A DNA stretch of 64,000 nt. It comes from Bacteroidia bacterium. GTDB taxonomy: Bacteria; Bacteroidota; Bacteroidia; Flavobacteriales; Flavobacteriaceae. The stretch covers positions 1-64,000 of the forward strand of contig JAUIBH010000008.1 in assembly GCA_030427985.1 (NCBI GenBank), in the 5' to 3' direction. The translations under genes and the position numbers were made by a program. Below are positions 8,955 through 53,813 of this stretch, one piece after another; position 1 is the stretch's first letter; each line of letters starts with the position of its first letter. The notes beneath the pieces are model-generated. The model saw nothing but the letters and a program-made list of their open reading frames with translations, was not told the origin of the DNA and did not search any database.

Positions 8955-9027
8955 CCGGTTTTTTTAATGTAGCTTATTTTTCTTCCAGTTGATTCGTTGC
9001 AATTTTGTCCTGATAAAACATTAAAAA

Positions 9028-24400: not shown

Positions 24401-25558
24401 ATGAAAATACTCAAACCATTTTTTTTGATTTTAGCGGTAGTACCTTTGTTCATTTGCTGCAAACAAACCAAAGAAGAGCCCGCAGAAGAACCCGCAAAAC
24501 CTATCACACTAAGAAACGTTTATGAAGATGCTTTTTATATTGGAACCGCATTGAACAGGTTTCAGATAGACGAAACCGATTCTGTAATGGCAAGCATTGT
24601 TGGAAGGGAATTTAACAGCATTACCGCAGAGAACATCATGAAGTCAATGATGATTCACCCTCAAAAAGATACCTTTAATTATGAAATGGCCGATAAGTTT
24701 GTTGCACTGGGGGAAAAGTACGACATGTTCATCCACGGGCACACATTAATTTGGCACAGTCAATTATCACCTTGGTTTAGAAGTATTGAGGACAGTTTAG
24801 AGTTCGCTACTGCGGCAGAAAACCATGTCAAGGATATCACATCAAAATACAAGGGCAAGATTGATTCTTGGGATGTTGTCAATGAAGCTTTGAATGAGGA
24901 TGGAACCTTGAGAAAGTCAATTTTTCTAGAAAAAATGGGTGAAGCATACTTGGCTTCTGCATTTAAATGGACCGCAGAAGTTGACCCAGACGCGGACCTG
25001 TACTACAATGATTACAATATGACCAACCCCGAAAAAAGACAAGGGGCCATAAGAATGGTCAAGAATATTTTGGATCAGGGAATAAAAGTGGATGGCATTG
25101 GAATGCAAGGCCACTGGCACTTGAATTCGCCATCACTGGAAGAAATTGAGCAAAGTATTTTGGATTATTCCGCGCTTGGGGTAAAGGTAGCCATTACGGA
25201 ATTGGATGTTAGTGTATTGCCCAACCCATGGGATTTGGAAGGAGCGGAAATCAGCCAAAATTTTGAAAACAGTGAGACTATGAACCCTTACACCAATGGC
25301 TTGCCAGATTCAGTTCAGGTACAATTGGCCAACAGATATAAAGACATCTTCAACCTCTTTCTAAAACATAAGGACAAAATTAGCAGAGTTACCTTTTGGG
25401 GGGTCAGTGATGGACAATCATGGTTGAACGGTTTCCCAATCAGGGGAAGAACCAATTACCCATTATTATTTGATAGGGAGCTACAACCAAAGGCAGCCTA
25501 TGATAGCATCATTGCGTTAAAGAAAAGATTTGACGAGCAACAGAATCCAGCTAATTAA
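24401..25558 (+). CDS. Endo-1,4-beta-xylanase, glycoside hydrolase family 10, lipoprotein
   Basis: Lipobox (VPLFICCKQ); GHTLIWHSQLSPWF; acid/base WDVVNEAL; nucleophile AITELDVSVLP; GVSDGQSWL. Confidence 0.96.
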   Translation: MKILKPFFLILAVVPLFICCKQTKEEPAEEPAKPITLRNVYEDAFYIGTALNRFQIDETDSVMASIVGREFNSITAENIMKSMMIHPQKDTFNYEMADKFVALGEKYDMFIHGHTLIWHSQLSPWFRSIEDSLEFATAAENHVKDITSKYKGKIDSWDVVNEALNEDGTLRKSIFLEKMGEAYLASAFKWTAEVDPDADLYYNDYNMTNPEKRQGAIRMVKNILDQGIKVDGIGMQGHWHLNSPSLEEIEQSILDYSALGVKVAITELDVSVLPNPWDLEGAEISQNFENSETMNPYTNGLPDSVQVQLANRYKDIFNLFLKHKDKISRVTFWGVSDGQSWLNGFPIRGRTNYPLLFDRELQPKAAYDSIIALKKRFDEQQNPAN

Positions 25559-25566: not shown

Positions 25567-26981
25567 ATGAATATAGAATCTCACAAACTATCGGTAAGGG
25601 AAAAAATTGGGTATAGCCTTGGAGACCTTGCCGCCAATTTGGTCTTCCAGACACTGGTGACCTATTTGGCCTATTTTTATACGGACATATATGGGCTTAA
25701 GGCCAACGATGCCTCAGCCGTTACATTGGTCGTAGGTTTAATAGCCGCATTTGCATTTAATCCCTTAATGGGGGTAATAGCGGATAGAACAGTAACCAAA
25801 TGGGGAAAATTTCGTCCTTGGATCCTTTGGACGGCCATTCCTTTGGGTGTTGCCGCCATATTGGCTTTTAGCACTCCAGATTTTTCATATAAAGGAAAGG
25901 TAATCTATGCCGTAGTCACCTATACGCTTCTTCTGCTCTTGTACGCTGCAAATAATTTGCCCTACTCGGCTTTGAGTGGTGTAATTACCGGCGATATGAA
26001 AGAGCGCAACAGCCTTTCCGCATATCGGTTTATTGCCGTGATGGGAGCGCAGTTCTTTGTTCAGGTTTTTATGTACGACTTAATCTTAAAAGCAGGTGAC
26101 GGAAATAAAGCCGCAGGAATGGAAACCGTAATGACATGGCTAGCGGTAATAGGAACCGTTATGTTGCTGATTACCTTTTTCGCCACCAAAGAACGTGTGG
26201 TGCCAAAACCAGAGCAAAAATCCAGTATAAAGGAAGATTTAGGGGATTTGATAAAAAACAGGCCTTGGATCATTATGTTGACCATAACAACCTTGGTTTT
26301 TATAACCTTGGCCATGAAAGGAGGCTCATACGTCTATTATTTTGAAAACTATGTTGATCAACAAAGTCTAAATGCTTTTTTAAATCCCATGAAGAGCTTT
26401 TTACCAACCTTTGAAAACGACACCTCATTGGGATTGGGTGTGTTTAACGGTGGTGGTATTCTTGTGGGCTTGATCGGCATTGCACTTTCCAAAAAATTGG
26501 CCGATAAATATGGCAAACGAAATGTATTTGGGGCTTCATTGTTTATATCCACACTGTTCATTATAGCGTTCTACTTTTTTCCACCCAATGCCGTAGGAAT
26601 CATTTTTGGCACTCAGATATTGCACATGTTTTTCTATGGTATCAGCACCCCCATTTTATGGACCATGATTGCCGATGTTGCCGATTATTCAGAATGGAAA
26701 ACAACACGGCGGGCGACTGCAATTATTTTTTCGGCTATGATGGTGGGACTTAAAGGAGGGCTAAGCATTGGTAGCGCATTGGTCGCTTGGATTTTGGGAC
26801 TTTATCATTACATTACCAAAGAAGCGGCGATTCCCGGTGTGGAAACCGTACAACCCGAAAGTGCCATAGAGGGAACACGAATGTTAGTAAGTATATACCC
26901 TGCAATTCCTTATTGTTCTTTTATGAAATTAATAAAAGGATGGAATTACAGATAGAGACCGAATTAAAAGGAAGAAGATAA
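25567..26981 (+). CDS. GPH-family sodium/cation:glycoside symporter (MFS), apparent C-terminal frameshift
   Basis: MNIESHKLSVREKIGYSLGDLAANLVFQ; ...ATAIIFSAMMVGLKGGLSIGSALVAWILG. Frame 1 ends at 26955 with an atypical tail; the family-like tail LLFFYEINKRMELQIETELKGRR* lies in another frame ending at 26981. Confidence 0.85.
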
Positions 26982-26996: not shown

Positions 26997-28034
26997 ATGC
27001 CGGAAGATAGTATAGACCATATCGATTTTGATGAGTTAAACAAAAAAGCAATAGCACAACCTATTGTTTCCCATATGTACACTGCGGACCCATCTGCACA
27101 TTATTTTAATGGTAAAATATATATTTACCCATCGCACGATATTGATGGAGGGGAAGCCTTTGACGATTTGGGTAGTCATTTTGCCATGGAAGACTACCAT
27201 GTTATTTCCATGGATAGTGTAGACAGTGAAGCTGTGGACCACGGTGTAGCGTTGCATGTGGACGATGTGCCATGGGCAGAAAAACAAATGTGGGCGCCAG
27301 ATGCAGCCCATAAAGATGGAAAATACTACCTGTTTTTTCCGGCGAAGGGATATGATGGAATCTTCAGGATTGGGGTAGCCGTTAGCGATTCACCTGTAGG
27401 ACCGTTTACCCCACAGCCCGAAGCCATTAAAGGAAGCTTTTCCATAGATCCCGCCGTTTTTGAAGATGAAGATGGGAGTTACTACATGTATTTTGGAGGC
27501 CTTTGGGGCGGACAACTACAACGCTGGAGAACGGGGGAATTCAATGCGGAACAACCAGAAAGTCCAACAGCACACATCCCCGAAGATGATGAAACGTCAC
27601 TTATGCCCAAAATTGCAAAAATGACCGATGACTTATTGGAATTTGCAGAAGAACCAAAGGACGTTCTGATTATTGATGAAGATGGCAACCCAATATTGGC
27701 TGGGGACAATGACAGACGATTTTTTGAAGCAGCATGGTTACACAAACACAATGGCAAGTACTATTTCTCCTATTCCACTGGAGATACACACTTTATTTGT
27801 TATGCCGTTGGCGACAATCCATACGGGCCATTTACCTACAAAGGAAGGATATTGGAGCCAGTTGTAGGTTGGACCACCCACCATTCTGTTTGCAAAGTTG
27901 ACGGAAAATGGTATTTATTTTACCATGATTCAAGCTTATCAAAAGGGGTAACCCATTTGAGGTCCGTAAAAGTAAGTGAGATTGAACATGATGCAAATGG
28001 ACTTATCAAAACTCTAAAGCCTTATAGGGAGTAA
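26997..28034 (+). CDS. Glycoside hydrolase family 43 protein (xylosidase/arabinofuranosidase type), no signal peptide
   Basis: MYTADPSAHYFNGKIYIYPSHD (catalytic base), IDPAVFEDEDGSYYMYFGG, FFEAAWLHKHNGKYYFSYS (acid). Confidence 0.93.
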   Translation: MPEDSIDHIDFDELNKKAIAQPIVSHMYTADPSAHYFNGKIYIYPSHDIDGGEAFDDLGSHFAMEDYHVISMDSVDSEAVDHGVALHVDDVPWAEKQMWAPDAAHKDGKYYLFFPAKGYDGIFRIGVAVSDSPVGPFTPQPEAIKGSFSIDPAVFEDEDGSYYMYFGGLWGGQLQRWRTGEFNAEQPESPTAHIPEDDETSLMPKIAKMTDDLLEFAEEPKDVLIIDEDGNPILAGDNDRRFFEAAWLHKHNGKYYFSYSTGDTHFICYAVGDNPYGPFTYKGRILEPVVGWTTHHSVCKVDGKWYLFYHDSSLSKGVTHLRSVKVSEIEHDANGLIKTLKPYRE

Positions 28035-28085: not shown

Positions 28086-28118
28086 GGGAGGCAAAGTAGT
28101 TTGTCTCCCATTTTTTTT
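28086..28118. terminator. Bidirectional terminator between convergent GH43 and lacI-type genes
   Basis: GGGAGGCAAA-GTAG-TTTGTCTCCC followed by TTTTTTTT. Confidence 0.75.
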
Positions 28119-29142
28119 AGACTGGCATTGCTTGAGTGGATTTCCGTACCACTAGATTTGTTTTGATGATTTTTGTTTCAAAATCATGGGTGTTTTTGCC
28201 CTCTATTCGGTCAATTAATATGTTAGCGGCATTTTCGCCAATAAATTTTCCATGTTGACTGACCATTGTTGCCGGAGGACTGACATACTTTGAAAGTTCT
28301 CCGTTGGTAAATCCAATAATGGCTATATCCTTGGGAATCTGATATCCCTTGGAACGTACCATATTCATCACTTTTACGGTGGTGATTTCATCAAAAACCA
28401 ATATCCCATCAATTTTTTCCAAGTCCAATGAAATGGAAAGTGTAAGCTCCAAGTCTTCTTTAGGATCTATGGGCACTATTAAATCAGCATCAAAAGGCAG
28501 TCCTTTTTCCTGTAATGCTTTTTTATACCCTTCCACTCTTAACCTTCCAATGGAAGAATTTGTTATGGGATTGACCACTGCAATTTTTCTGCATCCGGTC
28601 TCTATAAAATGGATGGTGGCCCTGTAGGCCGCTTCAAGATCATCAACAATTACCTTATCACAATCAATAAGATCAGTGACCCTATCAAACATGACCATGG
28701 GTATTTGCTTGTCCTGTAATTCCTTGAAATGCTGCACGTGACTGGAAAGTTCGGTTTCTGCAGCTACTGTTGAAATAATCACTCCATCAACAGAACCGGA
28801 GCATAGAAAATCCAAAATTTTAATTTCCTTTTCTATGGATTCGTTGGTACTACAAGTGATGATGCTATACCCCCTTTGGTCCATTACCTGTTCTATTCCG
28901 TAAAGAACTTGGACAAAAAAGTAATTCAGCATATTGGGAATGACCACCCCAATGGTCTTCGTATTCCGATTTAATAAATTAAGGGCGACCCTATTGGGTT
29001 TGTAATGGTTCGCTTTGGCATATTCCTTTATACTTTCCCTAAGTTCCTTGCTGATTTCATGGCTATCATTAATGGCCTTGGAAACTGTTGATACGGATAC
29101 CTTAAAATGGGAAGCAATGGATTTAAGCGTTATTTTGGACAT
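28117..29142 (-). CDS. LacI family transcriptional regulator
   Basis: ITLKSIASHFKVSVSTVSKAINDSHEISKELRESIKEYAKANHYKPNRVALNL, followed by a periplasmic-binding-like domain. Confidence 0.96.
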   Translation of the reverse strand: MSKITLKSIASHFKVSVSTVSKAINDSHEISKELRESIKEYAKANHYKPNRVALNLLNRNTKTIGVVIPNMLNYFFVQVLYGIEQVMDQRGYSIITCSTNESIEKEIKILDFLCSGSVDGVIISTVAAETELSSHVQHFKELQDKQIPMVMFDRVTDLIDCDKVIVDDLEAAYRATIHFIETGCRKIAVVNPITNSSIGRLRVEGYKKALQEKGLPFDADLIVPIDPKEDLELTLSISLDLEKIDGILVFDEITTVKVMNMVRSKGYQIPKDIAIIGFTNGELSKYVSPPATMVSQHGKFIGENAANILIDRIEGKNTHDFETKIIKTNLVVRKSTQAMPV

Positions 29143-29271: not shown

Positions 29272-30597
29272 TTAAACAAATCTATTTATAACATTTTCGA
29301 ACAATTCTTGTTTGCCACTGATTTGCTGAGGCTCGCCTGTTTTAACGGCATAATTATATAGATCCGTTAAACCTAGCTTTTCTGATACAAAGTCTGCGCC
29401 TTTTCCAGCTTCAAAGGAGGCATATCGGTTCTTCAACAATTCTTCGTAAGAAGAGTTTTCCAAGATTGCATCGGCGGCCAATAAGGCTTTTGCAAAAGTG
29501 TCGGCCCCTCCAATATGGGCTAAGAAGATATCCTCCAAATCGGTACTGTTTCTGCGGGTTTTGGCATCAAAGTTTACACCTCCACCTTGAAGTCCTCCAG
29601 ATTTTAGAAATACCAACATGGCTTCTGTAACTTCCAGAACATTATTGGGGAACTGATCGGTATCCCATCCATTTTGGTAATCCCCTCGGTTTGCATCAAT
29701 GCTTCCCAACATTCCAGCATTGGCAGCCACCTGCAATTCATGCTGAAACGTATGCTGTGCAAGAGTAGCATGGTTCACTTCAATGTTCAGTTTAAAATCA
29801 TTCTCAAGGCCATATTCACGAATGGAGTTGATGGAAGTAGCCGCATCAAAATCGTATTGATGTTTGGTGGGCTCCATGGGTTTGGGCTCAATAAAAAAGG
29901 TTCCAGTAAAGCCTTCTTTTCGGGCATAATCCTTGGCCATGTTTAAAAAGCGGCCAATGTTGTCCTGCTCCAATTTCATATTGGTGTTCAAGAGAGACAT
30001 ATAGCCTTCACGACCACCCCAGAAAACGTAGTTTTCACCACCTAGTGCTATTGTTGCATCCAAGGCCATCTTTACTTGGGCTCCCGCATGGGCCACTACA
30101 TCAAAGTTTGGATTTGAGGCAGCTCCGTTCATATATCTTGGGTTAGAGAAACAGTTTGCGGTTCCCCAAAGCAATTTTACACCTGATGAATTTTGCTTCT
30201 CCTTTAGATAATCTACTATTATGGATAATCTTTTTTCGGATTCCGCCAATGTATCTCCCTCGTCCACTAAATCAAAGTCGTGGAAACAATAGTAGTCAAA
30301 ACCTATTTTGGTAATGAACTCAAAGGCCGCATCCGCTTTTTCCTTGGCGGCGTTTATGGGGTCTGCATCTGTTGACCATGGAAATTGCTTTGTTCCGGGC
30401 CCAAAAGGATCCCCTCCGGTTCCGCACAAGGTATGCCAATACGCCATGGCAAACTTGAAATGCTCTCGCATGGTTTTCCCTGCCACAACTTGATCGGGAT
30501 TGTAAAATTTAAAAGCCAAAGGATTGTCAGATTCCTTGCCTTCAAACTTAATCTCGCCTATTCCTTTAAAATATTCTTTGTTACCTAAAAGTGCCAT
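29272..30597 (-). CDS. xylA: Xylose isomerase
   Basis: [70 protein letters not shown]. Confidence 0.97.
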
Positions 30598-31180: not shown

Positions 31181-34100
31181 ATGGAACTCAATGGTCAACC
31201 CTTTTTCACATTTGCTTTTAAAATTGCCATACTGTTAATTTTGGTCTCTGGGTGCAGTGAAGTTCCTCCAAGAAATGAAGGCCCTGGCGATATTTATGCG
31301 GCATCTGGTTATACTCCTACTGCGGCGCACAGTACCACTAGGGCTTTGTTCGCAGACTATAATGGCCCCCTTTACCAACTTATACGCGAGTCGGATGGCC
31401 AAACGCTGGATATAGGAGTGGTGCAACCCACCATAGGTGACCCTGGCGGTTATGCAGATGCCACTGCACAGGATGCTTTCTGCGAAAATTCATTGTGTTG
31501 GATCAGTATTATTTATGACCAATCTGGAAATGGCAATGATTTAAAACAAGCACCTCCGGGAACTTTTAGAGGATTGGAGAAAGGTGGGTTCAATAGTTTT
31601 CCTATTGCAGATATGGCTCCGGTTATGGTCAATGGGCATAAAGTTTATGGAGCTTATGTGATGCCCGGAGCGGGTTTACGAAATAATAATGCGGTTGGTC
31701 TCGCCATTAATGATGAAGCAGAAGGCATTTATATGGTTTTGGATGGTACTCATTTTTCCAGTGGTTGTTGCTTCAACTATGGAAACACTTCCACAAATAG
31801 TAGGGCAGTGGGTACGGGTACCATGTCAACCGTATATTATGGAACAGCAACGGCATGGGGCAAAGGTGAAGGAGAGGGGCCTTGGATTATGTCTGATATG
31901 GAAGCAGGGCTTTTTTCCGGCTATGAAACCAAAGAAAATGCCGCGAACCCTACCATAGATTCTTGGCGTTTTGTCACGGGTATGGTGAATGGTGGCGGTG
32001 GCAACCAATGGGAAATTTGGGGTGCCAATGCCCAAGAAAATGAATTGACAAACTTTTATAAAGGGGAGCGCCCACAATCCAAAGAGAATGATAGGTATTA
32101 TCCCATGCACCGTAAAGGATCTATACAAATGGGAAATGGGGGAGACAATGGAAACGGTTCAGCCGGTACGTTTTATGAAGGTATCATGACAACTGGTTAC
32201 CCTTCGGAGGATGTTATTAAAGCGGTGCAGGCCAATATTGCAGCTGCCAACTATAGTGTGCCAAGCGTAACCATGTCAAGGCTCACAAGCTTTACCCCAG
32301 GTTCCTCACAGGAATTGAAAGTATCGATTACAAACAGTTCTTCAGAAGATATATCTGACATTGAAATAAACTTGAATGTACCGGATGGATGGCCTACTGT
32401 GGAAGCGAAGAGAATTGAAGAAGTGATTGCACCAGGAACTTCCTTTGAGACAACCTTTACCGTTGCTTCCGGATCATCAGTGGATGCGGGTTATTTGACG
32501 GCAAAAGCCGAATGGGGAAATCAAACTTATGAAACGTCTCAACGTGTAAGAAGCGTACTTCCCGTTAAGATCAATGAGGCAAGCTTCAGTGGCGGTGATA
32601 ACCCTACCAATCAATTTGTGGAACTTTTTAATGCTTCGGATTCTGATATGGATATTTCCAATTGGTCCGTTATAAACACCCCAGCAGAATGGGCTTCCAT
32701 GGAGTTGGCTAAAATTCCAGCAGGAACAACATTGGGGGCAGGTGAATTCTACCTTTTTGGTTTGGCACACTCAGGTTTGGTGGCATCGGCTAAGGCAGGC
32801 GACAAAATAATTAATGTACGTAGTACAGAAGGTCTAAAAGTTGGTCAACAGATTGCAATTGAGGGTGAAAAGAAAACCATTGCCAGTATCGGTACGCCAG
32901 CAGCGGATAAAACACTACTCTTTGTGCCGGTTTCAACAGGACCTTGGCTTCATTTTCCTGCGGGCTCAACCAATTTGCCCGTTGCCAATGCAGATGGATT
33001 CACGGTAGGGGATAAAATCGGCATAGATTTAGGCGGCAATTACGAGGTGGCCACTGTGACCAAAGTGGGTAAAGCGGCTACGCAGAGTAACCTTGCAGAA
33101 CCTGCTAAGGCAGGTGACAACATTATAAAAGTATGGCGAAATGCCAATATGAGCCCGGGTGATACCCTTACCATCAATACGGGTGCCCGTATTGAGTTGG
33201 CTGTGGTGAAAAATGTCATCAGTGAGGTACAGCGACCCTATCGGGGCCGATTTGTTGGCGACCCAGGTGAGGTGGAATTAACCGCCCCACTTCAGAAAGA
33301 CCATATGCTTGAGGTAGATGTTTCGTCACCAGGTACGGGAATCAGTTTTACACCAGCTACACGTTTTCCCCACAAAAGTGGCGATGCCGTTCAGGCACTT
33401 GGTAGTGGGGTCACCCTAAAAGAAGGCTTGGCTAAATCCCATGAAACGGGTACGCCGATTGTGTTTTTGGGAAATACAAATATTGGTTACCAAGGTACCG
33501 TTCAACCCAATCAATATTATGGACTTCCCATGTCCATTTATGCAGGTACAGTGGCACTTATGGACCCTAGTGGCGAAGTGTTACTAGATGCGATGGTTTA
33601 CGGATCTCAACAGGGCAATTCCAGTGCCCGCGGTTCGGTACCCACTCCGGCCATAGCCACTTTGGAAGGTAATCAGGGGCAGGGAGGTTGTATAGCCGTG
33701 CTTCCCGGTACCAGTCAAGGTTCCTTCACGGCTTCCTACGACCCGATGATCAGAAGTTTGGGACGTTTCCCTGATGGGAATGATAGTGATAGCAATTGTG
33801 AGGATTTTACATCACAAAATGTTATTACGTTGGGCAGTACAGTATTTGCCAATTCAAAAAACATTAAAGTTGTGAGTGTAGAAGGCTTTAATGCGGGTCA
33901 GGAAATTATTATCGGGACAGGTGGTAAAGCTGAACATGTTGAGGTTGCTGAAGTAGGCACTTCTGGAGTGACCACCATAACTTCGGCTGTAAGTGCCGGA
34001 GCAACCACAATTCCTGTTGCACGGATTTTTGGTTTTAGCGAAGGTCAACATATTACCATTGGTAGCGGCCCAAGTTTGGAGACAGTAACCATTACATCCA

Positions 34101-34309
34101 TTACATTTCCGCGCCGTAATTTTGAGAATCCAGCCGAAAGTCAAGGTCCCTCTATTACAGTCAGTGAAGGATTACGCTATGCCCATGGTGTGGGGGAACA
34201 ACTTTCAGGAAGTGGAATTACGCTGAAGCAAAGTTTGCGTAAATCCCATCCCGAAGGAACACAAGTATCCAGCAACCTTCCTACACCGGGAAGTGCCAAT
34301 GGGTTCTAA
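31181..34309 (+). CDS. GH54-type alpha-L-arabinofuranosidase catalytic domain fused to a NEW3-like domain and an interrupted lamin-tail-like domain, lipoprotein
   Basis: Lipobox LILVSGCSEV; GPGDIYAASGYTPTAAHSTTRALFADYNGPLYQL, IIYDQSGNGNDLKQAPPG, GCCFNYGN, GPWIMSDMEAGLFSG, GGDNGNGSAGTFYEGIMTTGYPS are diagnostic of GH54. Then NEW3-like LTSFTPGSSQELKVSITNSS, LTD-like VKINEASFSG..NQFVELFNASDSDMDISNWSVI and closing LPTPGSANGF. Confidence 0.87.
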   Translation: MELNGQPFFTFAFKIAILLILVSGCSEVPPRNEGPGDIYAASGYTPTAAHSTTRALFADYNGPLYQLIRESDGQTLDIGVVQPTIGDPGGYADATAQDAFCENSLCWISIIYDQSGNGNDLKQAPPGTFRGLEKGGFNSFPIADMAPVMVNGHKVYGAYVMPGAGLRNNNAVGLAINDEAEGIYMVLDGTHFSSGCCFNYGNTSTNSRAVGTGTMSTVYYGTATAWGKGEGEGPWIMSDMEAGLFSGYETKENAANPTIDSWRFVTGMVNGGGGNQWEIWGANAQENELTNFYKGERPQSKENDRYYPMHRKGSIQMGNGGDNGNGSAGTFYEGIMTTGYPSEDVIKAVQANIAAANYSVPSVTMSRLTSFTPGSSQELKVSITNSSSEDISDIEINLNVPDGWPTVEAKRIEEVIAPGTSFETTFTVASGSSVDAGYLTAKAEWGNQTYETSQRVRSVLPVKINEASFSGGDNPTNQFVELFNASDSDMDISNWSVINTPAEWASMELAKIPAGTTLGAGEFYLFGLAHSGLVASAKAGDKIINVRSTEGLKVGQQIAIEGEKKTIASIGTPAADKTLLFVPVSTGPWLHFPAGSTNLPVANADGFTVGDKIGIDLGGNYEVATVTKVGKAATQSNLAEPAKAGDNIIKVWRNANMSPGDTLTINTGARIELAVVKNVISEVQRPYRGRFVGDPGEVELTAPLQKDHMLEVDVSSPGTGISFTPATRFPHKSGDAVQALGSGVTLKEGLAKSHETGTPIVFLGNTNIGYQGTVQPNQYYGLPMSIYAGTVALMDPSGEVLLDAMVYGSQQGNSSARGSVPTPAIATLEGNQGQGGCIAVLPGTSQGSFTASYDPMIRSLGRFPDGNDSDSNCEDFTSQNVITLGSTVFANSKNIKVVSVEGFNAGQEIIIGTGGKAEHVEVAEVGTSGVTTITSAVSAGATTIPVARIFGFSEGQHITIGSGPSLETVTITSITFPRRNFENPAESQGPSITVSEGLRYAHGVGEQLSGSGITLKQSLRKSHPEGTQVSSNLPTPGSANGF
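32780..33500 (+). repeat. First block of coding 'AKAGD-I-V-gf-vGd-I-I' beta-repeats
   Basis: SAKAGDKIINVRSTEGLKVGQQIAIEGEKKTIASIG / STNLPVANADGFTVGDKIGIDLGGNYEVATVTKVG / PAKAGDNIIKVWRNANMSPGDTLTINTGARIELAVV. Confidence 0.7.
33820..34270 (+). repeat. Second block of the same coding beta-repeats
   Basis: ANSKNIKVVSVEGFNAGQEIIIGTGGKAEHVEVAEVG / SAGATTIPVARIFGFSEGQHITIGSGPSLETVTITSI. Confidence 0.7.
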
Positions 34310-34390: not shown

Positions 34391-36916
34391 TTAGTTCTTG
34401 ATTTTAAATGTATAGGTTTTCCCTTTTTCCGTCATGATATCATAAAGAAAAGTTGGAACCAATGATAATTCTTCAAGAGTGGCTTCTTTTGAAATAAGGG
34501 GATTCATCGTTTGCGCTATCTTGAAAAAATGGTTGGGATTGCTTCCTTCAGCCTGCTTGAAATTCCCAGTTCCTACGAGTTCCAATTCGTTGGGAACACG
34601 GAGACGTAGGTTACCCCCCAAGTTTGATTTTATGGTGGCTACCACAAGTTTCTTGTTTTTCCATTCTAAAGCAATGACTTCAAAACCACCTCTAGCCTTT
34701 AACCCACCTACATATCCAGTATCAAGGGCATCGGGAACGGCAGGAAGCAAATGAACCGCTCCATCGGAACTTTGCAACAGCATTTCAGATATACCGGAAG
34801 TACAGCCAAAATTTCCATCAATTTGAAATGGCGGATGAGCATCAAACAAATTGTTGTACGTACCGCCACCACCTCGATTGATTCCCACTGGTGTCAATTG
34901 GTCTTTGATCAATTTATAGGCATGGTTACCATCTTGCATTTTAGCCCACCAATTTACCTTCCAACCCATGCTCCATCCTGTTGATATGTCGCCCCGCTGT
35001 AACAAGGTATTTTTTGCAGCGGCGAAAAGTTTGGGAGTTCTGTAAGGTGAAATTTGATTGGACGGGAAAAGACCGTACAAATGGGAAATATGGCGATGAT
35101 GGTCTTCCGGCGAATCCACATCATCCAACCATTCCTGTAGTTGATTGTGTTTGCCTATCTGCATGGGGGGCAATTTGCTCCGCAAGACCTTGAGTGAGTC
35201 AATAAAGGTGCTCTCTTTTTCCAAAACTTCAGCCGCTTGGATGTAGGTGTTGAACACATCAAACACCAATTGATTGTCCATGGTGGACCCAGCTGTAATG
35301 GATGAACCTTGATGGGCTTCGGGCGCATTTTCGGGAGAATTTCCGGGGGCAACGACCAAATAGGGGTAGTTGGGGTGTTGCACCAAAAAGTCCGCATAAA
35401 ATTCAGCAGCCCCTTTGAGCGCTGGAAAAACGGATTTCAAAAAAGTAGTGTCCCCAGTGTATAAATAGTGCTCCCAAAGATGTTGACTGGTCCAAGCTCC
35501 TCCGCCATTCCAGATACCCCAAAACGCTCCGTCTATAGGGCCGGTTATCCGCCAAATATCGGTATTGTGATGGGCCATCCAACCTCGTGCACCGTACATG
35601 GTCTTGGCTGTTTCCTTGCCTGTTATGGAAAGCTCTTGAACCATTTTAAGAAAGGGTTCGTGAAGCTCAGAGAGGTTGGTGCGTTCGGCTGGCCAATAAT
35701 TCATCTCTGCATTGATGTTGATGGTATATTTGCTGTCCCATGCAGGTTTCATCCTGTGGTTCCATATGCCTTGAAGGTTGGCAGGCTGCCCTCCGGGTTG
35801 GGAAGATGAAATCAATAAATATCTGCCATATTGAAAGTACAGGGCAACAAAGGATGGGTCTGTGGTGTTCCTAAAATTGGCCAATCGTTCATCTGTGGGT
35901 AATTTTGAAGCTTCCGTGCTTCCAAAATCCAAAACAACCCTGTTGAACAATTCTTGGTATTTTTTAATATGATTGGATTTTAATAGCTCATATGCCTTAT
36001 CAAAACCAGCATCCAAATAAGTTTTTGCACGTTTATTTTCATCACCGTTGAGGTCTTGGTATGAATTGAAGTTGGAAGCAATGGAAATCATCAAAATGGC
36101 ATCATTTGCATTTTCAACTTTTAGGGATGTGTCCGTTTGTGTGATTGTTCCATTTTCGGTTTTTAATCGCATCAGTGCATTAAATTCGACTTTGCCCTCA
36201 ACGCCTTCATGATCACTGGTTTTTCCCCAAAGGGAAATTTGATTTTCTCCATTGATTTCAATTTTGGAATCGGTATGTGGAGTGGTAAGATTTGCGGTAA
36301 ATGAAATTTTACCGGGTTGGTCCGCTGTTAGTCGAACAATGAGTAACCGATCGGTCAATGAAACAAAAGCTTCTCGGGTATACGTAATGCCATCAATTTT
36401 GTAGGATGTTTTGCTTGTGGCATTGCTGATGTCCAGTTCGCGATAGTATTCCTCATAATCCATATGGTTTGGGAAAGACAATTCCAAATTCCCAACAGGT
36501 TGGAACATTTGTCCATGTGATTTTTTGGTTATGATCTTGTCATTGGCCAATTGTTCGGCAGCTTTGTATTCACCATTGAATATGAGTTCCCGGACCTTGG
36601 GAAGCGCTTCAAGCGCATTGGGGTTGTCATTTCTATTGGGACTGCCACTCCATACGGCATGTTCATTGAGTTGGAATATTTCGGTGCCCACATTACCATA
36701 GACCATGGCCCCCAATCGGCCATTTCCAATGGGAAGTGCATTTTCCCATGTATCTCCAGAGGGTTCATCATACCATAATTTTAAATCGTTGGATTGTTGG
36801 CCATAGGACAAACAGCCTGTGCACAAACAAACCAAGTAGAACCATTTTTTCAGGTTAAAACCTTGGGTCGAAAAATTGGAAAACCAATTATAAATCAAAG
36901 TGTGTGATACGGACAT
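34391..36916 (-). CDS. Glycoside hydrolase family 95 alpha-L-fucosidase-type protein, secreted
   Basis: [55 protein letters not shown] ... [25 protein letters not shown] ... [19 protein letters not shown]. Confidence 0.95.
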
Positions 36917-41772: not shown

Positions 41773-42804
41773 ATGAAATATGTGGTCTGTGAAAAGCCCG
41801 GTAAATTTGTCCTAAAGGAAAAAGAAGTTCCCATCCGAAAAAGAAATGAAGCATTACTGCGCATAAAAAATGTGGGTATTTGTGGCACCGACATCCATGC
41901 GTATGGCGGAAACCAAGCCTTTTTTACCTATCCACGAATTTTAGGTCATGAACTTTGTGCTGAAGTCGTTGAGGTTGAAAACAACAATACAACTATAAAA
42001 GTGGGGGACAGAGTGGCCATAATGCCCTATTTAAGCTGTGGTACGTGCAGTGCCTGTACCAATGGAAAAACAAATTGTTGTTCCAACATTAAAGTGATTG
42101 GGGTCCACACGGATGGCGGCATGCAGGAGTTTATAAGCCTGCCTACAAGTGTATTGATTCCGGTAAACCACCTTACGGATAATGAGACGGTTATCATTGA
42201 ACCCTTGGCGATAGCCGCCCACGCCATACGTAGGGCAGGTTTAAAGAAAGGGGAGACCATTGTTGTCATGGGATGTGGACCCATTGGAATTGCATTAATG
42301 GCTCAGGCCAAAATAATTGGGGCACGTGTCATTGCCCTAGATATCGATAACAAACGTTTGGCGTATGCCCAGGATCATATGGGTGCAGATTTTATCATAA
42401 ATACTGTGGAAGAAAATGCTGAGGAAAAGATTATGGCGCTTACCAATGGCAATCTGTGTGAGGTTGTATTTGATGCCACTGGGGCAAAACGGGCATTGGA
42501 GGAAGGGCCAAAATTCATGTGCCATGGGGGAAGGTACGTTTTGGTTGGTTTATCTAAAGGCGATTTGGTCTACAATCATCCGCAGATCCATGCCAAAGAA
42601 ACTACATTGCTATGCAGCAGAAATGCCACCTATGAAGATTTTGAGCATGTTATACAGATGATCAAAAGTTTTCCAACCGATAAATACATCACCCATAGAA
42701 TGACATTTTCATCACTCCCTGAAACCTTTGATGGTTTTATTGGTTCTGATGATTTGGCCGTGAAAGCGGTAATAGATTTGGATAAAATTGATTCGAAGGG
42801 GTAA
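41773..42804 (+). CDS. Zinc-binding medium-chain alcohol dehydrogenase family protein
   Basis: GICGTDIHAYGGNQAFFTYPRILGHELCAEVVEV, four-Cys lobe CGTCSACTNGKTNCC, VVMGCGPIGIALMAQAKIIGARVIALDID. Confidence 0.94.
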   Translation: MKYVVCEKPGKFVLKEKEVPIRKRNEALLRIKNVGICGTDIHAYGGNQAFFTYPRILGHELCAEVVEVENNNTTIKVGDRVAIMPYLSCGTCSACTNGKTNCCSNIKVIGVHTDGGMQEFISLPTSVLIPVNHLTDNETVIIEPLAIAAHAIRRAGLKKGETIVVMGCGPIGIALMAQAKIIGARVIALDIDNKRLAYAQDHMGADFIINTVEENAEEKIMALTNGNLCEVVFDATGAKRALEEGPKFMCHGGRYVLVGLSKGDLVYNHPQIHAKETTLLCSRNATYEDFEHVIQMIKSFPTDKYITHRMTFSSLPETFDGFIGSDDLAVKAVIDLDKIDSKG

Positions 42805-42851
42805 AATTCACGTTTCATCAGAAGCGTATCTTCCTCAAATAAATAGCATAT

Positions 42852-44282
42852 ATGTCAAGAAAAAGACCCATTAAAATTGTTCAATTCGGTGAAGGCAACT
42901 TTTTACGGGCATTTGTGGACTTCGCATTCCATAAACTTAACACCGAATTGGATTTTAACGCAGGAATTGCGGTGGTACAGCCCATTGAAAAAGGACTAAT
43001 TGATGTTCTTAATGAGCAGGATGGCCAGTATGCCCTTTTTTCAAAAGGAGTAGTGAACGGTATTGAAGTTCAAGAAAAATACGTGATTGATTCCATCGAA
43101 TATGCTGTGAATCCCTATGTTGATTTTGAATCCTTCAAAAAATTGGCCCATGAGCCCGAACTACAATTTGTAATCTCCAATACTACGGAAGCCGGAATTG
43201 CCTACAATGAAGACGATGCCCAAGAAATGGCTCCGCCCAATTCATTTCCGGCCAAGTTGACCGTTTTTTTATATGAACGTTTCAAACATTTTAAAGGAAA
43301 CAAGGATAAGGGCCTTACCATTATTCCATGTGAACTTATCAATACCAATGCGGATGCATTAAAAAAATTCATACTTCAATATAGTGAAGCCTGGCAATTG
43401 GGTCCGGATTTCAAAAATTGGGTTGACAGGGACTGTAGTTTTCACAATACATTGGTGGATAGGATTGTTCCAGGGTATCCCAAGGATGATATTTTAAGCT
43501 ATACCCAACAATTGGATTATGAGGACAAATTGATCGTTACTTCAGAGGAGTTCTTTTTGTGGGTAATAGAGGGTGATGAAACGCTCAAGAAAAAGCTGCC
43601 ATTTCATAAAACGGGATTAGATGTAAAAATCGTTCCCAATATGCAACCCTACAGGACCAGAAAAGTACGTATTTTGAATGGAGCCCATACGGTAATGGTA
43701 CCTTTTTCTTTAATGTACGGAAATAGTACTGTAAAAGAGACCGTTGACGATAAATTCACGGGAAAATTTGTTTCAGACCTTATTTTTGATGAGATCATCC
43801 CCACTTTGGAACTGGATAAAGAAGAACTGGAAATTTTTGCCAATGCCGTTTTGGATAGGTTCAGAAACCCCTTCATCAAACATTATCTGGCCAGCATTGC
43901 ACTGAATTCCATTTCCAAATTTAAAGTAAGGGTGTTGCCAAGCCTCTTACAGTACCAGAAGAATACAGGTGAACTACCTCCAAGACTGGTCTTTGCCTTT
44001 GCATGTCTGCTCAGATTTTACAAAGGTGATTGGAAGGAGAAAAAACTCCCAGTGAATGATGATGAAAACGTTGTATCTTTTATCCAGAACATTTGGAATT
44101 CATCAAGTAAAATTCAAGCCGTGGTTGATGCCATAATTGGTGAGGAAAGCTTTTGGGATCAGAACTTGACCAAAGTAGCAGGTTTGAGCCAATCCCTTAC
44201 GCTCGCCATGGAACATATTGAAAGGAATGGGATAGAAGAAGGTTTCAACGCATTTTGCAATCATATAAAAAAACAAAAATGA
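42852..44282 (+). CDS. uxaB: Tagaturonate reductase (altronate oxidoreductase) family, mannitol dehydrogenase superfamily
   Basis: KIVQFGEGNFLRAFVDFAFHKLN ... TRKVRILNGAHTVMVPFSLMYG. Confidence 0.87.
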   Translation: MSRKRPIKIVQFGEGNFLRAFVDFAFHKLNTELDFNAGIAVVQPIEKGLIDVLNEQDGQYALFSKGVVNGIEVQEKYVIDSIEYAVNPYVDFESFKKLAHEPELQFVISNTTEAGIAYNEDDAQEMAPPNSFPAKLTVFLYERFKHFKGNKDKGLTIIPCELINTNADALKKFILQYSEAWQLGPDFKNWVDRDCSFHNTLVDRIVPGYPKDDILSYTQQLDYEDKLIVTSEEFFLWVIEGDETLKKKLPFHKTGLDVKIVPNMQPYRTRKVRILNGAHTVMVPFSLMYGNSTVKETVDDKFTGKFVSDLIFDEIIPTLELDKEELEIFANAVLDRFRNPFIKHYLASIALNSISKFKVRVLPSLLQYQKNTGELPPRLVFAFACLLRFYKGDWKEKKLPVNDDENVVSFIQNIWNSSSKIQAVVDAIIGEESFWDQNLTKVAGLSQSLTLAMEHIERNGIEEGFNAFCNHIKKQK

Positions 44283-45886
44283 AACAACTGATAAAGGTGC
44301 ATCCTAATGACAATGTGGCCATAGCCCTTGTGGATTTGTCCAAGGGAGACCATATTGAGTTTGAGGATATACGGTTGGAATTACGCTCTGACGTTCCAGC
44401 CAAACATAAAATCAATTTACAACCGCTCAGCAAAGGGGATAAGATTTATATGTATGGGGTTTTAGTGGGCACGGCAAAAAAAGAGTTGGAAAAAGGGGTG
44501 CAATTGACGACTGAAAATGTCATTCATGAAAGTGCCATTACCACAGGACGAAATGGGAAATCGGATTGGTCGCCACCTGATATTTCCAAATGGAAAGACA
44601 GACAATTTCTAGGCTATCATAGAGCTGATGGGCAGGTGGGAACCGAGAATGTATGGTTGTTTTTTCCACTTGTTTTTTGTGAGAACAAGAACATTGAGCG
44701 TTTAAAGGAAATATTTGACAAGGAACTGTATATAGAGGAGGTGAGTGAGCAAAGACAGCTTCTTCGGAGCCTCATTAATGGAGAGGAAGAAACCGCCCAA
44801 CCCCAATTGGAGCGAAAATCCGTTTTCCAAAACGTTAAGGTGAAATTCATTACCCATCAAGGTGGGTGCGGTGGAATACGGCAAGACTCCGAATTGCTGG
44901 CCAAATTATTGGCAGGCTATGTAAACAATCCCAATGTTGCCGGCGCCACCGTACTGAGTTTGGGCTGCCAGAACCTACAAATCAAAACCTTTAAGGAAGC
45001 ACTGAACACTATTAACCCAGACATAGGAAAACCAGTCCTGATTTACGAACAGCAACAAATGGGTACTGTAGATAATATGCTGAATACCATCATAAAGGAA
45101 ACCTATGAAGCATTGATCAAAGCCAACGATATTGAAAGACAAGCTGCCCCACTCTCCAAATTAAAACTGGGTCTGGAATGTGGTGGCTCAGATGGGTTTT
45201 CAGGTATATCAGCCAACCCAACCTTGGGATATGTGTCTGATGTTTTGGCTACTTTGGGTGGTTCACCCATTCTTTCCGAGTTTCCTGAACTTTGTGGGGT
45301 AGAGCAGGAGTTGGTCAATCGGTGTGTTGACGATAAAAAGGCCGATAAATTTCTCAGCTTGATGAAAGCCTATGAAAAATCTGCTATCGATGCTGGATCA
45401 GGTTTTGATATGAACCCATCCCCCGGAAACATTAAAGATGGACTTATCACCGATGCCATGAAATCGGCCGGTGCAGCCAAAAAAGGAGGAGCCTCCCCCA
45501 TAACGGATGTGCTGGACTACACAGAATATGTGACCAAACCAGGACTTAACCTACTTTGTACGCCAGGCAACGATGTGGAAAGCACCACTGGAATGGTAGG
45601 TTCAGGAGCAAACATGGTAGTGTTTACTACGGGGCTGGGCACCCCAACTGGAAATCCCATAACACCGGTGATTAAAGTGTCATCCAACACGACTTTGGCG
45701 AAAAAAATGCCCGACATCATTGATGTGGATACAGGTCCTGTGATACGTGGTGAAAAGAGTATTGAGGAAATGGGTACCCTTCTGTTGGAATATATCATAG
45801 CTGTGGCCAGTGGCGAAAAAACCGCCAAGGCCGATATGCTAGGGCAAGATGATTTTATTCCTTGGAAAAGGGGAGTGTCCTTGTAA
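44279..45886 (+). CDS. uxaA: UxaA-family (altronate dehydratase-type) hydro-lyase
   Basis: MKQLIKVHPNDNVAIALVDLSKGD; FLGYHRADGQVGTENVWL; FITHQGGCGGIRQD; LGLECGGSDGFSGISANP. Start set to 44279, an ATGA overlap with the preceding gene. Substrate not determined by sequence. Confidence 0.9.
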   Translation: MKQLIKVHPNDNVAIALVDLSKGDHIEFEDIRLELRSDVPAKHKINLQPLSKGDKIYMYGVLVGTAKKELEKGVQLTTENVIHESAITTGRNGKSDWSPPDISKWKDRQFLGYHRADGQVGTENVWLFFPLVFCENKNIERLKEIFDKELYIEEVSEQRQLLRSLINGEEETAQPQLERKSVFQNVKVKFITHQGGCGGIRQDSELLAKLLAGYVNNPNVAGATVLSLGCQNLQIKTFKEALNTINPDIGKPVLIYEQQQMGTVDNMLNTIIKETYEALIKANDIERQAAPLSKLKLGLECGGSDGFSGISANPTLGYVSDVLATLGGSPILSEFPELCGVEQELVNRCVDDKKADKFLSLMKAYEKSAIDAGSGFDMNPSPGNIKDGLITDAMKSAGAAKKGGASPITDVLDYTEYVTKPGLNLLCTPGNDVESTTGMVGSGANMVVFTTGLGTPTGNPITPVIKVSSNTTLAKKMPDIIDVDTGPVIRGEKSIEEMGTLLLEYIIAVASGEKTAKADMLGQDDFIPWKRGVSL

Positions 45887-45889
45887 CCC

Positions 45890-46747
45890 TTATTTTTTGT
45901 ATGCGATGCAGCTTTGTTTGGAGGTCCCTAAACCTTCAATGCCAAGTTCCATGATATCGCCTGGCTTTAGGTATCTGGGTGGATTAAAACCAAGCCCAAC
46001 TCCAAAGGGTGTCCCTGTTGAAATCACGTCTCCCGGCAAAAGGGTCATAAACTGACTGATATAAGAAACCACTTCTTGAACATTAAAAATAAAATCTGAT
46101 GTAGAGGAGTGTTGTAGACGTTCACCATTAACGTCCAACCATAATTCCAGATTATTGGGATTTTGTATTTCGTCCGTTGTGGCAATAAATGGACCCAGGG
46201 GAGCAAATGTATCACAACCCTTCCCTTTGCACCATTGCCCTTCTTTCTCTATTTGGAAGGCCCTTTCGCTAATGTCATTATGAAGGACATATCCGGCAAT
46301 ATGGTCCATGGCTTCTGATTCTTCTATATAAGAAGCTTTTTTACCAATAACAATAGCGAGTTCTACCTCCCAATCGGTTTTTTTGGAATTTTTGGGGATA
46401 ATAACCTGGTCATTTGGGCCACAAATGGCAGTGGTGGATTTAAAGAAAAGTACGGGTTCCTTAGGGATGGCCATGCCAGCCTCTTTGGCATGCATTGCAT
46501 AATTTAATCCTACACAGACAAGTTTTGAAGGTCTTGCCAAAGGTGGACCCAATCGAACTTCATTGGCCACGGTGGGGCAATCGGATTCATTGTCCTTCAA
46601 CCAATTTCTAAGTTTTTCTATGCCGTCGTTGCCAAAAAATTCCTCATTATAGTCCATTCCAAAAGCAGATACGTCAAGTTTTGTTCCATCTGCCAATTGT
46701 ACACCCGGCTTTTCTTGTCCGGTAGTTCCAAATCGAATTAATTTCAT
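45890..46747 (-). CDS. Fumarylacetoacetate hydrolase family protein
   Basis: KLVCVGLNYAMHAKEAGMAIPKEPVLFFKSTTAICGPNDQVIIP ... DWEVELAIVIGKKA ... GDVISTGTPFGVGLGFNPPRYLKPGD. Confidence 0.94.
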   Translation of the reverse strand: MKLIRFGTTGQEKPGVQLADGTKLDVSAFGMDYNEEFFGNDGIEKLRNWLKDNESDCPTVANEVRLGPPLARPSKLVCVGLNYAMHAKEAGMAIPKEPVLFFKSTTAICGPNDQVIIPKNSKKTDWEVELAIVIGKKASYIEESEAMDHIAGYVLHNDISERAFQIEKEGQWCKGKGCDTFAPLGPFIATTDEIQNPNNLELWLDVNGERLQHSSTSDFIFNVQEVVSYISQFMTLLPGDVISTGTPFGVGLGFNPPRYLKPGDIMELGIEGLGTSKQSCIAYKK

Positions 46748-46756
46748 ATGTTGTGT

Positions 46757-47533
46757 TTAACCTTTTAGTTTTATGAACCCACCATCAATGGGGTAATCTG
46801 TTCCAGTAATAAATTTTGCCTCATCTGAACAAAGGAAGAGAGCCAAGTCGGCAACCTCCTGTGGCTCTGCCATACGCCCTATGGGTTGGGTCTTGGAAAG
46901 TTTGTCAAATATTTCTTTTTCCCGACCTGGATAGTTTTTTTTAATGAAACCGTCTACAAAAGGCGTGTACACCCTCCCAGGGGAAATACAATTGCACCGT
47001 ATTCCATGGTTGATATAATCGTTGGCAATGGAATAGGTCATGGTAAGGACTGCACCCTTGGTCATTGAATAAGCAAAGCGATCTGTTATTCCTACCGAAG
47101 CAGCCACCGAAGCAATGTTTAAAATATTGCCATTTCCCTTTTTCTTCATGAAGGGGAGTATGGACTTGGTACAATTGTAGATGCCTTTTATATTCACGTT
47201 GTACAATTTATCTAAGTCTTGCTCGGATACAGCTTCAATGTTTCCTACATGGGCAATGCCCGCATTGTTCACCAAAATGTCCGGTACTTCATTTTTGGCA
47301 ATTTCGGAGATGACTTCGGTTACATTTTCTTGATTTGAAACATCGCACATGTACCCAAATGCATCCATTCCCAATGCTTTGATTTCCTCAACAACATTTA
47401 AGGAGGATTCTTGGTTGGCATCTAAAATATGGACCTTTGCACCTTGTTGGGCAAATGTCATGGAAATTGCTTTTCCAATTCCGCTGCCGCCTCCGGTTAC
47501 AATGACAATCTTACCGTTTAAACTAAACTTCAT
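46757..47533 (-). CDS. SDR family oxidoreductase, candidate 2-keto-3-deoxy-L-fuconate dehydrogenase
   Basis: VTGGGSGIGKAISMTFAQQGAKVHILDAN, NNAGIAHVGN, YSMTKGAVLTMTYSIANDY, CISPGRVYTPFVDGF. Role from context. Confidence 0.9.
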   Translation of the reverse strand: MKFSLNGKIVIVTGGGSGIGKAISMTFAQQGAKVHILDANQESSLNVVEEIKALGMDAFGYMCDVSNQENVTEVISEIAKNEVPDILVNNAGIAHVGNIEAVSEQDLDKLYNVNIKGIYNCTKSILPFMKKKGNGNILNIASVAASVGITDRFAYSMTKGAVLTMTYSIANDYINHGIRCNCISPGRVYTPFVDGFIKKNYPGREKEIFDKLSKTQPIGRMAEPQEVADLALFLCSDEAKFITGTDYPIDGGFIKLKG

Positions 47534-47966
47534 TTTACCTGTTGCTTCTATTCTTTCTGTTTCTTTTGACTATGGGCAATACTAGGAAACAAGGCATCTA
47601 GGTGCTCAATGCAATAATAGTCAGTTTTTTCATTAAATGGAGGAGGAGCACTGTTTTTCCTGTTTATAGAAATCTTGTCCCGGACAAAAATTACCAAAGG
47701 AAATTTTAGCTGCCTGTTTGTTGGGTATGTACCTTTTAAAATATTGTTTTTTTAAATTTATAAATATAGAGGTGGTTTTTTTTGATATAATGTGGTTTAA
47801 TTCAAAAATAATTTGCAAGGTTCGTAAAAAATTATTTAATTTATAAATGTAATTAAAACACTTATTGATGATTGTATATGGATTTTAGCCTGACATCCTA
47901 CATTGGACCGTTTCTACGGATCAGATAGATGGCAGCGTTTTTTTTTAACCAATAAATACGAAGCTG

Positions 47967-48830
47967 TTGGAAAATATGCCTACTACACGATTTGACGAAT
48001 CTAGAACCGCCCTAAAACCTTACGGGATGAGGTGTGAGTTGTGGCAGCCAAAAAGGATGAAAAGGGAAGAGCGGCACAATGAATTGGAAATCAATTTTAT
48101 GCCCAATTGTTCCATTACCTATCTTATCAGTAATCGTAAGTTTAAAATAAAAAAAGGGTCAGTAATTGCATTTTGGGCACTCATGCCACATCAAGTTATT
48201 GATTTTAAAGACGATTGTCCGTATTACGTCATCACTATACCATTCTCAGTTTTATGTGAATGGAAACTACCCAAAACATTTCTTGATTCCATCTTTCAGG
48301 GAGAAGTACTGTTTAACCAAGAATTGGAAGATCTCCAATTTGAGAAAAAGCGTTTTGATCGATGGTCCACTGAACTTGATCGTAAGGGAACTGAACTCTA
48401 TTCGGCTTGTTCGCTGGAAATTTGTGCCTTTTTAAAAAGATTGGCTTTAAAGACCTCGTCGCTGTCCTGTCAACAGAAAGTTCAACCGCCACCCATTAAT
48501 CTTGTAGAAAGAATGGCCATGTTCATTGCGAATAACTTTACGGAGCCGATTAAAGCGGGTGATGTGGCAAATGCAGTTGGCCTCAATCCAGATTATGCCA
48601 ATTCAATTTTCAAAAAAACATTTTGCAAGACCATATCAAATTACATCATTGGCCAGCGTGTACTGTTGGCAGAAAGGAAGCTTTCAATTTCTGATGAGCC
48701 AATCACTTCATTGGCATTTCAATCTGGTTTTAGTTCTATAAGTAGGTTTAATGCAGCTTTTAAGAAAAAAAACAACTTGACTCCCAGGGAGTATCGAAAA
48801 AAGCATTTGCTAAACCTTCAAATGAAGTAG
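47967..48830 (+). CDS. AraC family transcriptional regulator, N-terminal cupin type
   Basis: C-terminal HTH: EPIKAGDVANAVGLNPDYANSIFKKTFCKTISNYIIGQRVLLAERKLSISDEPITSLAFQSGFSSISRFNAAFKKKNNLTPREYRK. Confidence 0.92.
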   Translation: MENMPTTRFDESRTALKPYGMRCELWQPKRMKREERHNELEINFMPNCSITYLISNRKFKIKKGSVIAFWALMPHQVIDFKDDCPYYVITIPFSVLCEWKLPKTFLDSIFQGEVLFNQELEDLQFEKKRFDRWSTELDRKGTELYSACSLEICAFLKRLALKTSSLSCQQKVQPPPINLVERMAMFIANNFTEPIKAGDVANAVGLNPDYANSIFKKTFCKTISNYIIGQRVLLAERKLSISDEPITSLAFQSGFSSISRFNAAFKKKNNLTPREYRKKHLLNLQMK

Positions 48831-48884
48831 CGCCTCTGCTGTTTTAATATTGATCTATCCTTCTTGTTTTACTTTTTACCAAAT

Positions 48885-48920
48885 AAAAAAAACCACCTGT
48901 TTTGCAACAAGTGGCTTTTT
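48885..48920. terminator. Bidirectional terminator between araC-type and susD-type genes
   Basis: AAAAAAAACCACCTGTT-TTGC-AACAAGTGGCTTTTT, one internal mismatch. Confidence 0.7.
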
Positions 48921-48958
48921 AAAAATAACTAACTCAAAATAATTATCACTGATTCTAT

Positions 48959-50536: not shown

Positions 50537-50540
50537 AGTT

Positions 50541-53500: not shown

Positions 53501-53813
53501 CTACAATTTCTTGGGTTTTGTAGCCAATAAAGGAAAATACCAATACACTCTGATTGTTTCCAACCTCAATCGAATAATTTCCATCGAAGTCTGTTGAAGT
53601 ACCATTTGTAGTGTTCTTGACGACCACGGTGACCCCCAGAAAGGGCTGCCCATTTTCGTCAGTAACCATACCGGTAACAGTAGTTTGTAACTCGGATGCA
53701 TTGAAAATTTTCCGGTCCATGTCTGTATCCATGGCCACACCGCTATAGGCATTGGCCATAGCACTTGAACATGTTAACAGTACAATGCACCACAAAAAGT
53801 GATAATTTTTCAT
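50541..53813 (-). CDS. SusC/RagA family TonB-linked outer-membrane protein
   Basis: Carboxypeptidase-like plug extension (VTGMVTDENGQPFLGVTVVVKNTTNGTSTDFDGNYSIEV), LNEVVVTGLGIRKDTRKLGYAVTSV, MTVLKGATAAAIYGARAANGAVIITTKSG. Confidence 0.96.
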   Translation of the reverse strand: MKNYHFLWCIVLLTCSSAMANAYSGVAMDTDMDRKIFNASELQTTVTGMVTDENGQPFLGVTVVVKNTTNGTSTDFDGNYSIEVGNNQSVLVFSFIGYKTQEIVVGNRSVINVSLEPDVTSLNEVVVTGLGIRKDTRKLGYAVTSVETEELTKTRTVNPMESLVGKVSGLNITPPSAGAASSMKIRLRGQAAFAGASNSPLFVINGLPIDQGARGANGRGNQRDLGDNLQNINPDDIESMTVLKGATAAAIYGARAANGAVIITTKSGRLNQGIGVEFTSSYTTSEALNFMDEITQTMYGQGTSGLRPQTQGEAAATGQFGFGERLDGAPTINFDGVMRPYSAYPYKLYDFLRTGSNLTNTIGLSGGNEKGSFRVSFADTKAEGIQPTNTYKKRIFNVGINYNITEKLNMLLNVNYANEENINPPEIGTQGPGAVNFFNRTTVSVPIEAYEQSAIDPVTGAELRTNGFLGTINNPYYQLQKNQFFNDDRNRLLGTATLRYDFTDWLYLQGRYNYDYATNFREWNTLNGAGATTTLEGDTGFYRGQYNIQQTETRDINADFLLGFSNTFGKFSVDATFGGNTWRSKFQRNEQFSRLFVVPDLYSITNGTFFETDQAGFQPYQYSTFRINSLYGTADFGYNDLIYLNFTGRQDWFSVLNPADNSVFYPSVSGSFVFSELLNDRDGWLNYGKVRASWAEVGSANGVNTYEGILNYNINPPFNGQTTAGVQGGFAPNPLLRPFTVTEKEIGLDMRLFNNRLRLDIAAFEKITTDQILDVTLSNTSGYNNSKQNIASLRNSGLETLVEFTPIQTNDFTWVSSWNNAYLDTEVLDVGNESGSILLIYFNGTGNEFLGELRYTEGMAMNQLYTRTYRRNANGQILVNDDGRLLATNSDTPGAEETNGFLPVGSSIPKHTGGWNNSFRYKNFSFGFFIDYKFGGTVLSSTHLNMLRQGHSILSLEGRREGENGIIVPNSVYESSGQPNTTAVSNLQSFYADYRNLQIGDPFTFKSDFVKLRSINLSYDFTDVISKIPDMKFIKGLTLSASCRNVAILYKDFPGIDPEAVQSSGDFRAGYENSALPTTRNYNFSLNVKF

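Follow-up and report, generated by a model that had tools for sequence, protein, structure and literature searches.

The open reading frame at positions 31181-34309 (+ strand) of the window, that is, the whole 64,000-nucleotide stretch of DNA analysed here, very probably encodes a working retaining exo-alpha-L-arabinofuranosidase that belongs to clade A of the bacterial GH54 enzymes and is carried on a putative surface or periplasmic lipoprotein. What had been supposed to be a fungal oddity is a bacterial family of two clades that has its own tail and, to our knowledge, no characterised member. In relatives, members of the second clade (GH54B) are often linked to a VKOR-DsbA gene, which points to a testable route by which strict anaerobes could make a disulfide-dependent secreted hydrolase.

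A complete GH54 catalytic domain on a putative lipoprotein

The reading frame is intact, starts with ATG and encodes 1042 amino acids. More specifically, a Pfam search matched residues 35-359 (31283..32257; features of this gene are all on the + strand) to the complete PF09206 model (1-315 of 315) with 394 bits, against a curated cut-off of 25, and an E value of 5.1e-118, so that the GH54 assignment first made by motif reading is confirmed. In a PDB sequence search, the only relatives were A. kawachii-type AbfB structures (1wd3/6sxt; E about 1e-102, residues 34-402 aligned). The N-terminal signal peptide (31181..31255) carries a lipobox-like LVSG-C25, recognised by eye, which marks the product as a putative lipoprotein with predicted lipidation, as the original prediction had it. 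SGC also occurs in the closest relative, from Muricauda sp. CP2A (L002), whose GH54 domain is 94% identical. A search of the source genome for a second GH54 gene found none.

An alignment set the window protein against AkAbfB and 74 further bacterial proteins. W226, D239, E241, D322, C196 and C197 do not vary in any of its 75 bacterial rows. E241 (31901..31903) aligns with E221 of AkAbfB, D322 (32144..32146) with D297, the vicinal C196-C197 (31766..31771) with C176-C177, and C101 and C106 (31481..31498) with the disulfide pair C81-C86. In AkAbfB, E221 serves as the nucleophile and D297 as the acid/base, and the vicinal disulfide faces the bound arabinose. On this alignment the window protein keeps the GH54 catalytic apparatus of nucleophile Glu, acid/base Asp and vicinal Cys, in agreement with the claim that its catalytic residues are intact. 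E241 would attack the anomeric carbon with D322 as acid/base, and the C196-C197 disulfide would contribute to the face that binds the sugar, as it does in the fungal structure.

The window protein thus shares with AkAbfB (PDB 1wd3, 6sxs-6sxt) the whole length of the catalytic domain, the nucleophile, the acid/base, the vicinal cysteines and the C81-C86 pair. It differs in having a putative lipoprotein signal and a tail made of NEW3 and a split lamin tail domain (LTD), and in lacking both CBM42 and the first fungal disulfide, C21-C31, which is replaced by G36/P46 here and is also missing in its flavobacterial relatives.

A split LTD tail in place of CBM42

No CBM42/AbfB match was found in the reading frame at E values up to 1, and the protein is not of the fungal GH54-CBM42 type. 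The C-terminal part is instead occupied by NEW3 (PF10633, NPCBM_assoc; residues 372-441, 32294..32503, E 3.9e-10) and LTD (PF00932; residues 461-530, 32561..32770, E 7.8e-10), the latter with 39.5 bits against a cut-off of 34.3 and with strands in the AlphaFold2 model. Both modules, and the missing CBM42, had been read correctly from the sequence at the outset. The Pfam match is restricted to the N-terminal half of the LTD because the domain is interrupted twice, by insertions that carry five copies of one repeat, as seen in the tail alignment and with a repeat HMM.

Insertion 1 (about residues 533-775, 32777..33505, limits approximate) was delimited by the repeat HMM and by alignment with shorter forms, and holds three repeat units (540-570, 595-629 and about 650-679). 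The alignment places the middle part of the LTD at about residues 785-880 (33533..33820), followed by insertion 2 (about residues 883-1030, 33827..34270) with two repeat units (895-925 and 940-974). The closing LTD motif PTPGSANGF (34280..34306) forms an end that is conserved in long and short forms. The repeat HMM was built from a single unit (seed 940-974) and matched all three units of insertion 1 and the other unit of insertion 2, giving five with the seed; at E 0.01 it gave 172 matches over 54 family tails, compared with 1 in the same tails reversed. Insertion 2, from the DF motif to the closing PTPG motif, is cleanly absent from L014, L023, L026, L031, L033, L040, L049, L050 and L066, and the forms without it come from Micromonospora, rumen Bacteroidales and others. 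Because it is absent without trace in many relatives, insertion 2 behaves as a modular insertion. The split LTD with its repeat-bearing insertions is described as new here.

LTD was matched by 53 of the 54 tails in Pfam. The tail model reached a pLDDT of 86.9 and a pTM of 0.82 (AlphaFold2); PDB and viral fold searches matched no solved structure to the whole-tail fold, the only matches, to generic beta domains, being partial and of low TM. The nearest Pfam name, the K1-lyase Rider domain, was rejected (19.2 bits against a cut-off of 27, with matches in 3 of 54 members).

This tail of NEW3 and an LTD with two beta-repeat insertions would replace the fungal CBM42 and most likely serves as a stalk, which may also bind glycans weakly. 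That the LTD and its repeats form a carbohydrate-binding module functionally replacing CBM42, rather than a spacer, is rather unlikely. The tail does occupy the position of the CBM and is kept across phyla, and one member, probably L025, adds a recognised CBM5/12; however, no Pfam CBM matches the window protein, the PDB fold search yielded only the partial beta-domain matches, and insertion 2 is dispensable.

A recognised CBM5/12 occurs in one of the 54 tails, for which the GH54 protein of Micromonospora arborensis (L025) is the likely carrier, as its C-terminus reads like CBM5/12. On plasmid pP6W1 of Novosphingobium sp. P6W, a gene annotated as hypothetical (L143:6022-7923) encodes a tail of the GH54 type but no catalytic domain, with transposase genes upstream, and is probably a decapitated relic. 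A search for a GH54-type tail on another enzyme of the source genome gave nothing convincing. The LTD cysteines C837 and C873, in the middle part, are both present in 57 of 75 rows, both missing in 16 and single in 2. In the rumen-clade rows L031-L064, the alignment column of window N168 often has an extra Cys, mostly together with another in the column of S716 within insertion 1 (both in 24, single in 5 and 2). This pair, found mostly in one clade, could possibly be an inter-domain disulfide.

Two bacterial GH54 clades

GH54 has been best studied in fungi, and we know of no characterised bacterial member with this tail architecture. One scan of genome contigs identified 77 bacterial GH54 loci in seven phyla, namely Bacteroidota, Acidobacteriota, Planctomycetota, Verrucomicrobiota, Lentisphaerota and Actinomycetota, plus one alphaproteobacterium; PF09206 matches in other Bacteroidota that were limited to about the first third of the profile (8-112) were not taken as GH54. 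GH54-NEW3-LTD is common to most of the complete bacterial loci. Proteins of this architecture from Confluentibacter, Marixanthotalea, Muricauda sp. CP2A, rumen Bacteroidales, Micromonospora, Acidobacteriota and Planctomycetota share 35-82% tail identity with the window protein. They differ from it in that many are without insertion 2, rumen members have more cysteines, and many anaerobes add GH54B and VKOR-DsbA.

In the tree, A. kawachii AbfB pairs with a Streptomyces sequence that ends soon after its GH54 domain, and the window protein groups with bacterial sequences apart from this pair with 99% SH-aLRT support, the root being based on these two sequences, one fungal and one from Streptomyces. 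All other bacterial rows fall into two clades, B with 26 rows and A with 63 including the window. A published sequence-similarity network of the same family covers 1594 sequences, 20 of them characterised, and proposes no subfamilies (PMC10461819), whereas in the present tree the bacterial members form clades A and B, distinguished by a sequence signature and by a genomic marker. Both this split and the linkage of GH54B to VKOR are, as far as described here, new.

The phylogeny, which had been proposed as a check, also bears on the origin of the gene, and with one fungal sequence in it the tree rejects a recent transfer from a fungus to a bacterium. Such a transfer is highly improbable. It would agree with the best-characterised GH54 enzymes being fungal and with a patchy spread, the window's genome being the only one of 25 drawn from its genus to have GH54 and 400 genomes from the window's family yielding 5 full-length cases. 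However, the rows nearest to the window are all bacterial (flavobacteria first, followed by Bacteroidota, Planctomycetota, Acidobacteriota and Micromonospora), the fungal and Streptomyces sequences fall outside all other bacterial sequences, and the tail is bacterial without the fungal CBM42. That a fungal enzyme had moved into a bacterium, as the original reading implied, is not supported: the window protein belongs to a widespread, multi-phylum bacterial clade, though rare per genome, in most members of which its architecture recurs, and the novelty of a fungal-type enzyme in a bacterium is reduced.

Two side observations concern unusual matches. L009 contains two tandem GH54-like stretches (4474-6447 and 7817-11104), the first without the usual tail frame. 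In L083-L090, first-third GH54 profile matches fall within other Bacteroidota proteins, 300-3500 aa long, and perhaps represent a shared beta-sandwich fragment.

Genomic neighbourhood and predicted role

The window GH54 sits between a xylan block and GH95. The block consists of GH10 (24401-25558, +), an MFS_2 sugar transporter (25567-26955, +), GH43 (26997-28034, +), a LacI-type regulator (28117-29142, -) and xylose isomerase XylA (29272-30597, -), the last two divergent from GH54; GH95 (34391..36916, -) is convergent with it. XylA was assigned from its own sequence and a weak TIM-barrel match and the others by Pfam, and the xylan/pentose neighbourhood originally reported is borne out.

As a link of GH54 to GH10 and XylA, however, it is weak. 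The GH10 linkage is not conserved: in Muricauda sp. CP2A only the esterase and GH95 sides are kept, with GH95 again adjoining GH54 by tblastn synteny and no GH10-MFS-GH43-LacI-XylA block between esterase and GH54, and the GH10 orthologue of two further flavobacteria is on a different contig from GH54. XylA is near GH54 in two unrelated loci (L014 and L073), and a pentose link therefore stays plausible. A pentose role of the window GH54 is likely. The enzyme most likely strips arabinose from arabinoxylan or arabinan side chains, with arabinoxylan as the suggested specific substrate, and this removal would let the xylanases and xylosidases of the same genome proceed. A search for an operator shared by LacI/XylA and GH54 found no palindrome common to the intergenic regions.

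Further along the window (41773-53813), uronate-type catabolic genes (ADH, mannitol-type dehydrogenase, altronate dehydratase-like, FAH), an AraC regulator and a SusD/SusC pair look like a separate polysaccharide utilisation locus.

Linkage of GH54B to a VKOR-DsbA fusion in relatives

A census of 56 genes flanking GH54 comprised esterases, GH127, GH95, GH43 and others, with no constant partner except VKOR, which was found adjoining GH54 as a fusion with a DsbA-like domain. VKOR is present in 26 of 42 GH54 genomes. In 18 of these 26 it lies directly downstream of GH54B on the same strand and is VKOR-DsbA-sized wherever the gene is complete, this being inferred from coordinates in G834 and G846 and the gene being cut by the contig end in G843. 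Counting all genomes, a VKOR(-DsbA) gene directly follows GH54B in 20, from two phyla, with spacing often of 4-10 bp or overlapping; as these units could go back to a small number of events, the genome counts are not independent. Four loci (L108, L109, L110 and L111, in G818, G824, G836 and G854) have the order GH54B-VKOR-GH54A on one strand, and the spacings in this three-gene unit are -4 to 7 bp in G836 and G854 (L110 and L111, where the genes are 4-7 bp apart or overlap by 4 bp). No adjacent VKOR was seen at the GH54B genes L012, L130, L133, L134, L135, L136 and L137. The fusion does not adjoin GH54 in G835 and G847, and in G837 the GH54 and VKOR genes are both near contig ends, where adjacency is not judgeable.

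As an outside test, we used an even draw of 247 Bacteroidales genomes, of which 13 had VKOR above the cut-off. Full-length GH54 occurred in the centre genome, G928 and G1032, and in the latter two the fusion is 42-48 bp downstream of GH54. With the centre excluded (246 genomes), any VKOR was present in 2/2 GH54 carriers versus 10/244 others (Fisher p 0.002). Two VKOR genes examined from genomes without GH54 have a different domain order.

The relatives' fusions have a VKOR match, four VKOR cysteines and a C-terminal CxxC, and the active-site cysteines of VKOR and of the DsbA CxxC are invariant in 22 of 22. They resemble the VKOR-DsbA oxidases of Synechococcus and Clostridium sp. CAG:768 in the N-terminal VKOR with its four cysteines and the C-terminal DsbA/thioredoxin-like CxxC, and differ in being encoded beside GH54 (PMC12453122). 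GH54B itself carries the motif W-[IVL]-M-T-D-Q-E-N-N-[LI]-V-G-C and, roughly ten residues further along, a second Cys in 25 of 26 sequences, both cysteines being lost in one. This extra pair, beside the nucleophile, corresponds to window positions 247/255, and the window GH54 has fewer cysteines. GH54B and VKOR distances correlate (r 0.67, 0 of 5000 permutations), as is also expected because linked genes share descent.

DsbB was found in 1 of 23 GH54 genomes tested, the alphaproteobacterium only, and a clostridial VKOR-DsbA fusion is reported to rescue E. coli mutated in both dsbA and dsbB (PMC12453122). Since the fusion can supply disulfides and DsbB is nearly absent, a folding partner for disulfide-rich GH54 is the simplest reading. 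From the gene linkage we infer that VKOR-DsbA, directly downstream of GH54B in anaerobic relatives, would oxidise the GH54 disulfides as a dedicated oxidase where a general Dsb system is lacking; the anaerobic or low-oxygen habitats (rumen, gut, digesters) are those given in record titles. The literature collection searched contained nothing relevant to VKOR together with an arabinofuranosidase, or to VKOR from Bacteroidetes.

We put at just short of even the prospect that GH54B, VKOR-DsbA and GH54A constitute a dedicated enzyme/folding-catalyst operon, in which a private oxidase lets an anaerobe make a secreted plant-polymer hydrolase, dependent on its vicinal disulfide, without oxygen or general Dsb, and that the marine lineage of the window kept GH54A alone and shed one disulfide. 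It is quite possible, if somewhat less than evenly so, that VKOR adjoins GH54B only through hitch-hiking carbohydrate clusters and serves envelope proteins generally: the fusion adjoins carboxylesterases or GH43 in G835 and G837, VKOR-DsbA fusions elsewhere are general oxidases (PMC12453122), and linked units may have spread together. Against this stand the direct and tightly spaced adjacency across the 20 genomes, the extra cysteines of GH54B, and the fact that related genomes lacking GH54 seldom have VKOR.

Neither VKOR, and with it the fusion of its relatives, nor DsbB was found in the source genome, which is 88.9% complete; the VKOR mechanism therefore cannot apply to the window protein, whose own disulfides have to form in some other way. 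If GH54B does need VKOR-DsbA, this could help explain its rarity in Bacteroidales and would suggest co-expression for producing such enzymes. A further arrangement occurs in G822, where the VKOR-DsbA fusion precedes a lone GH54A.
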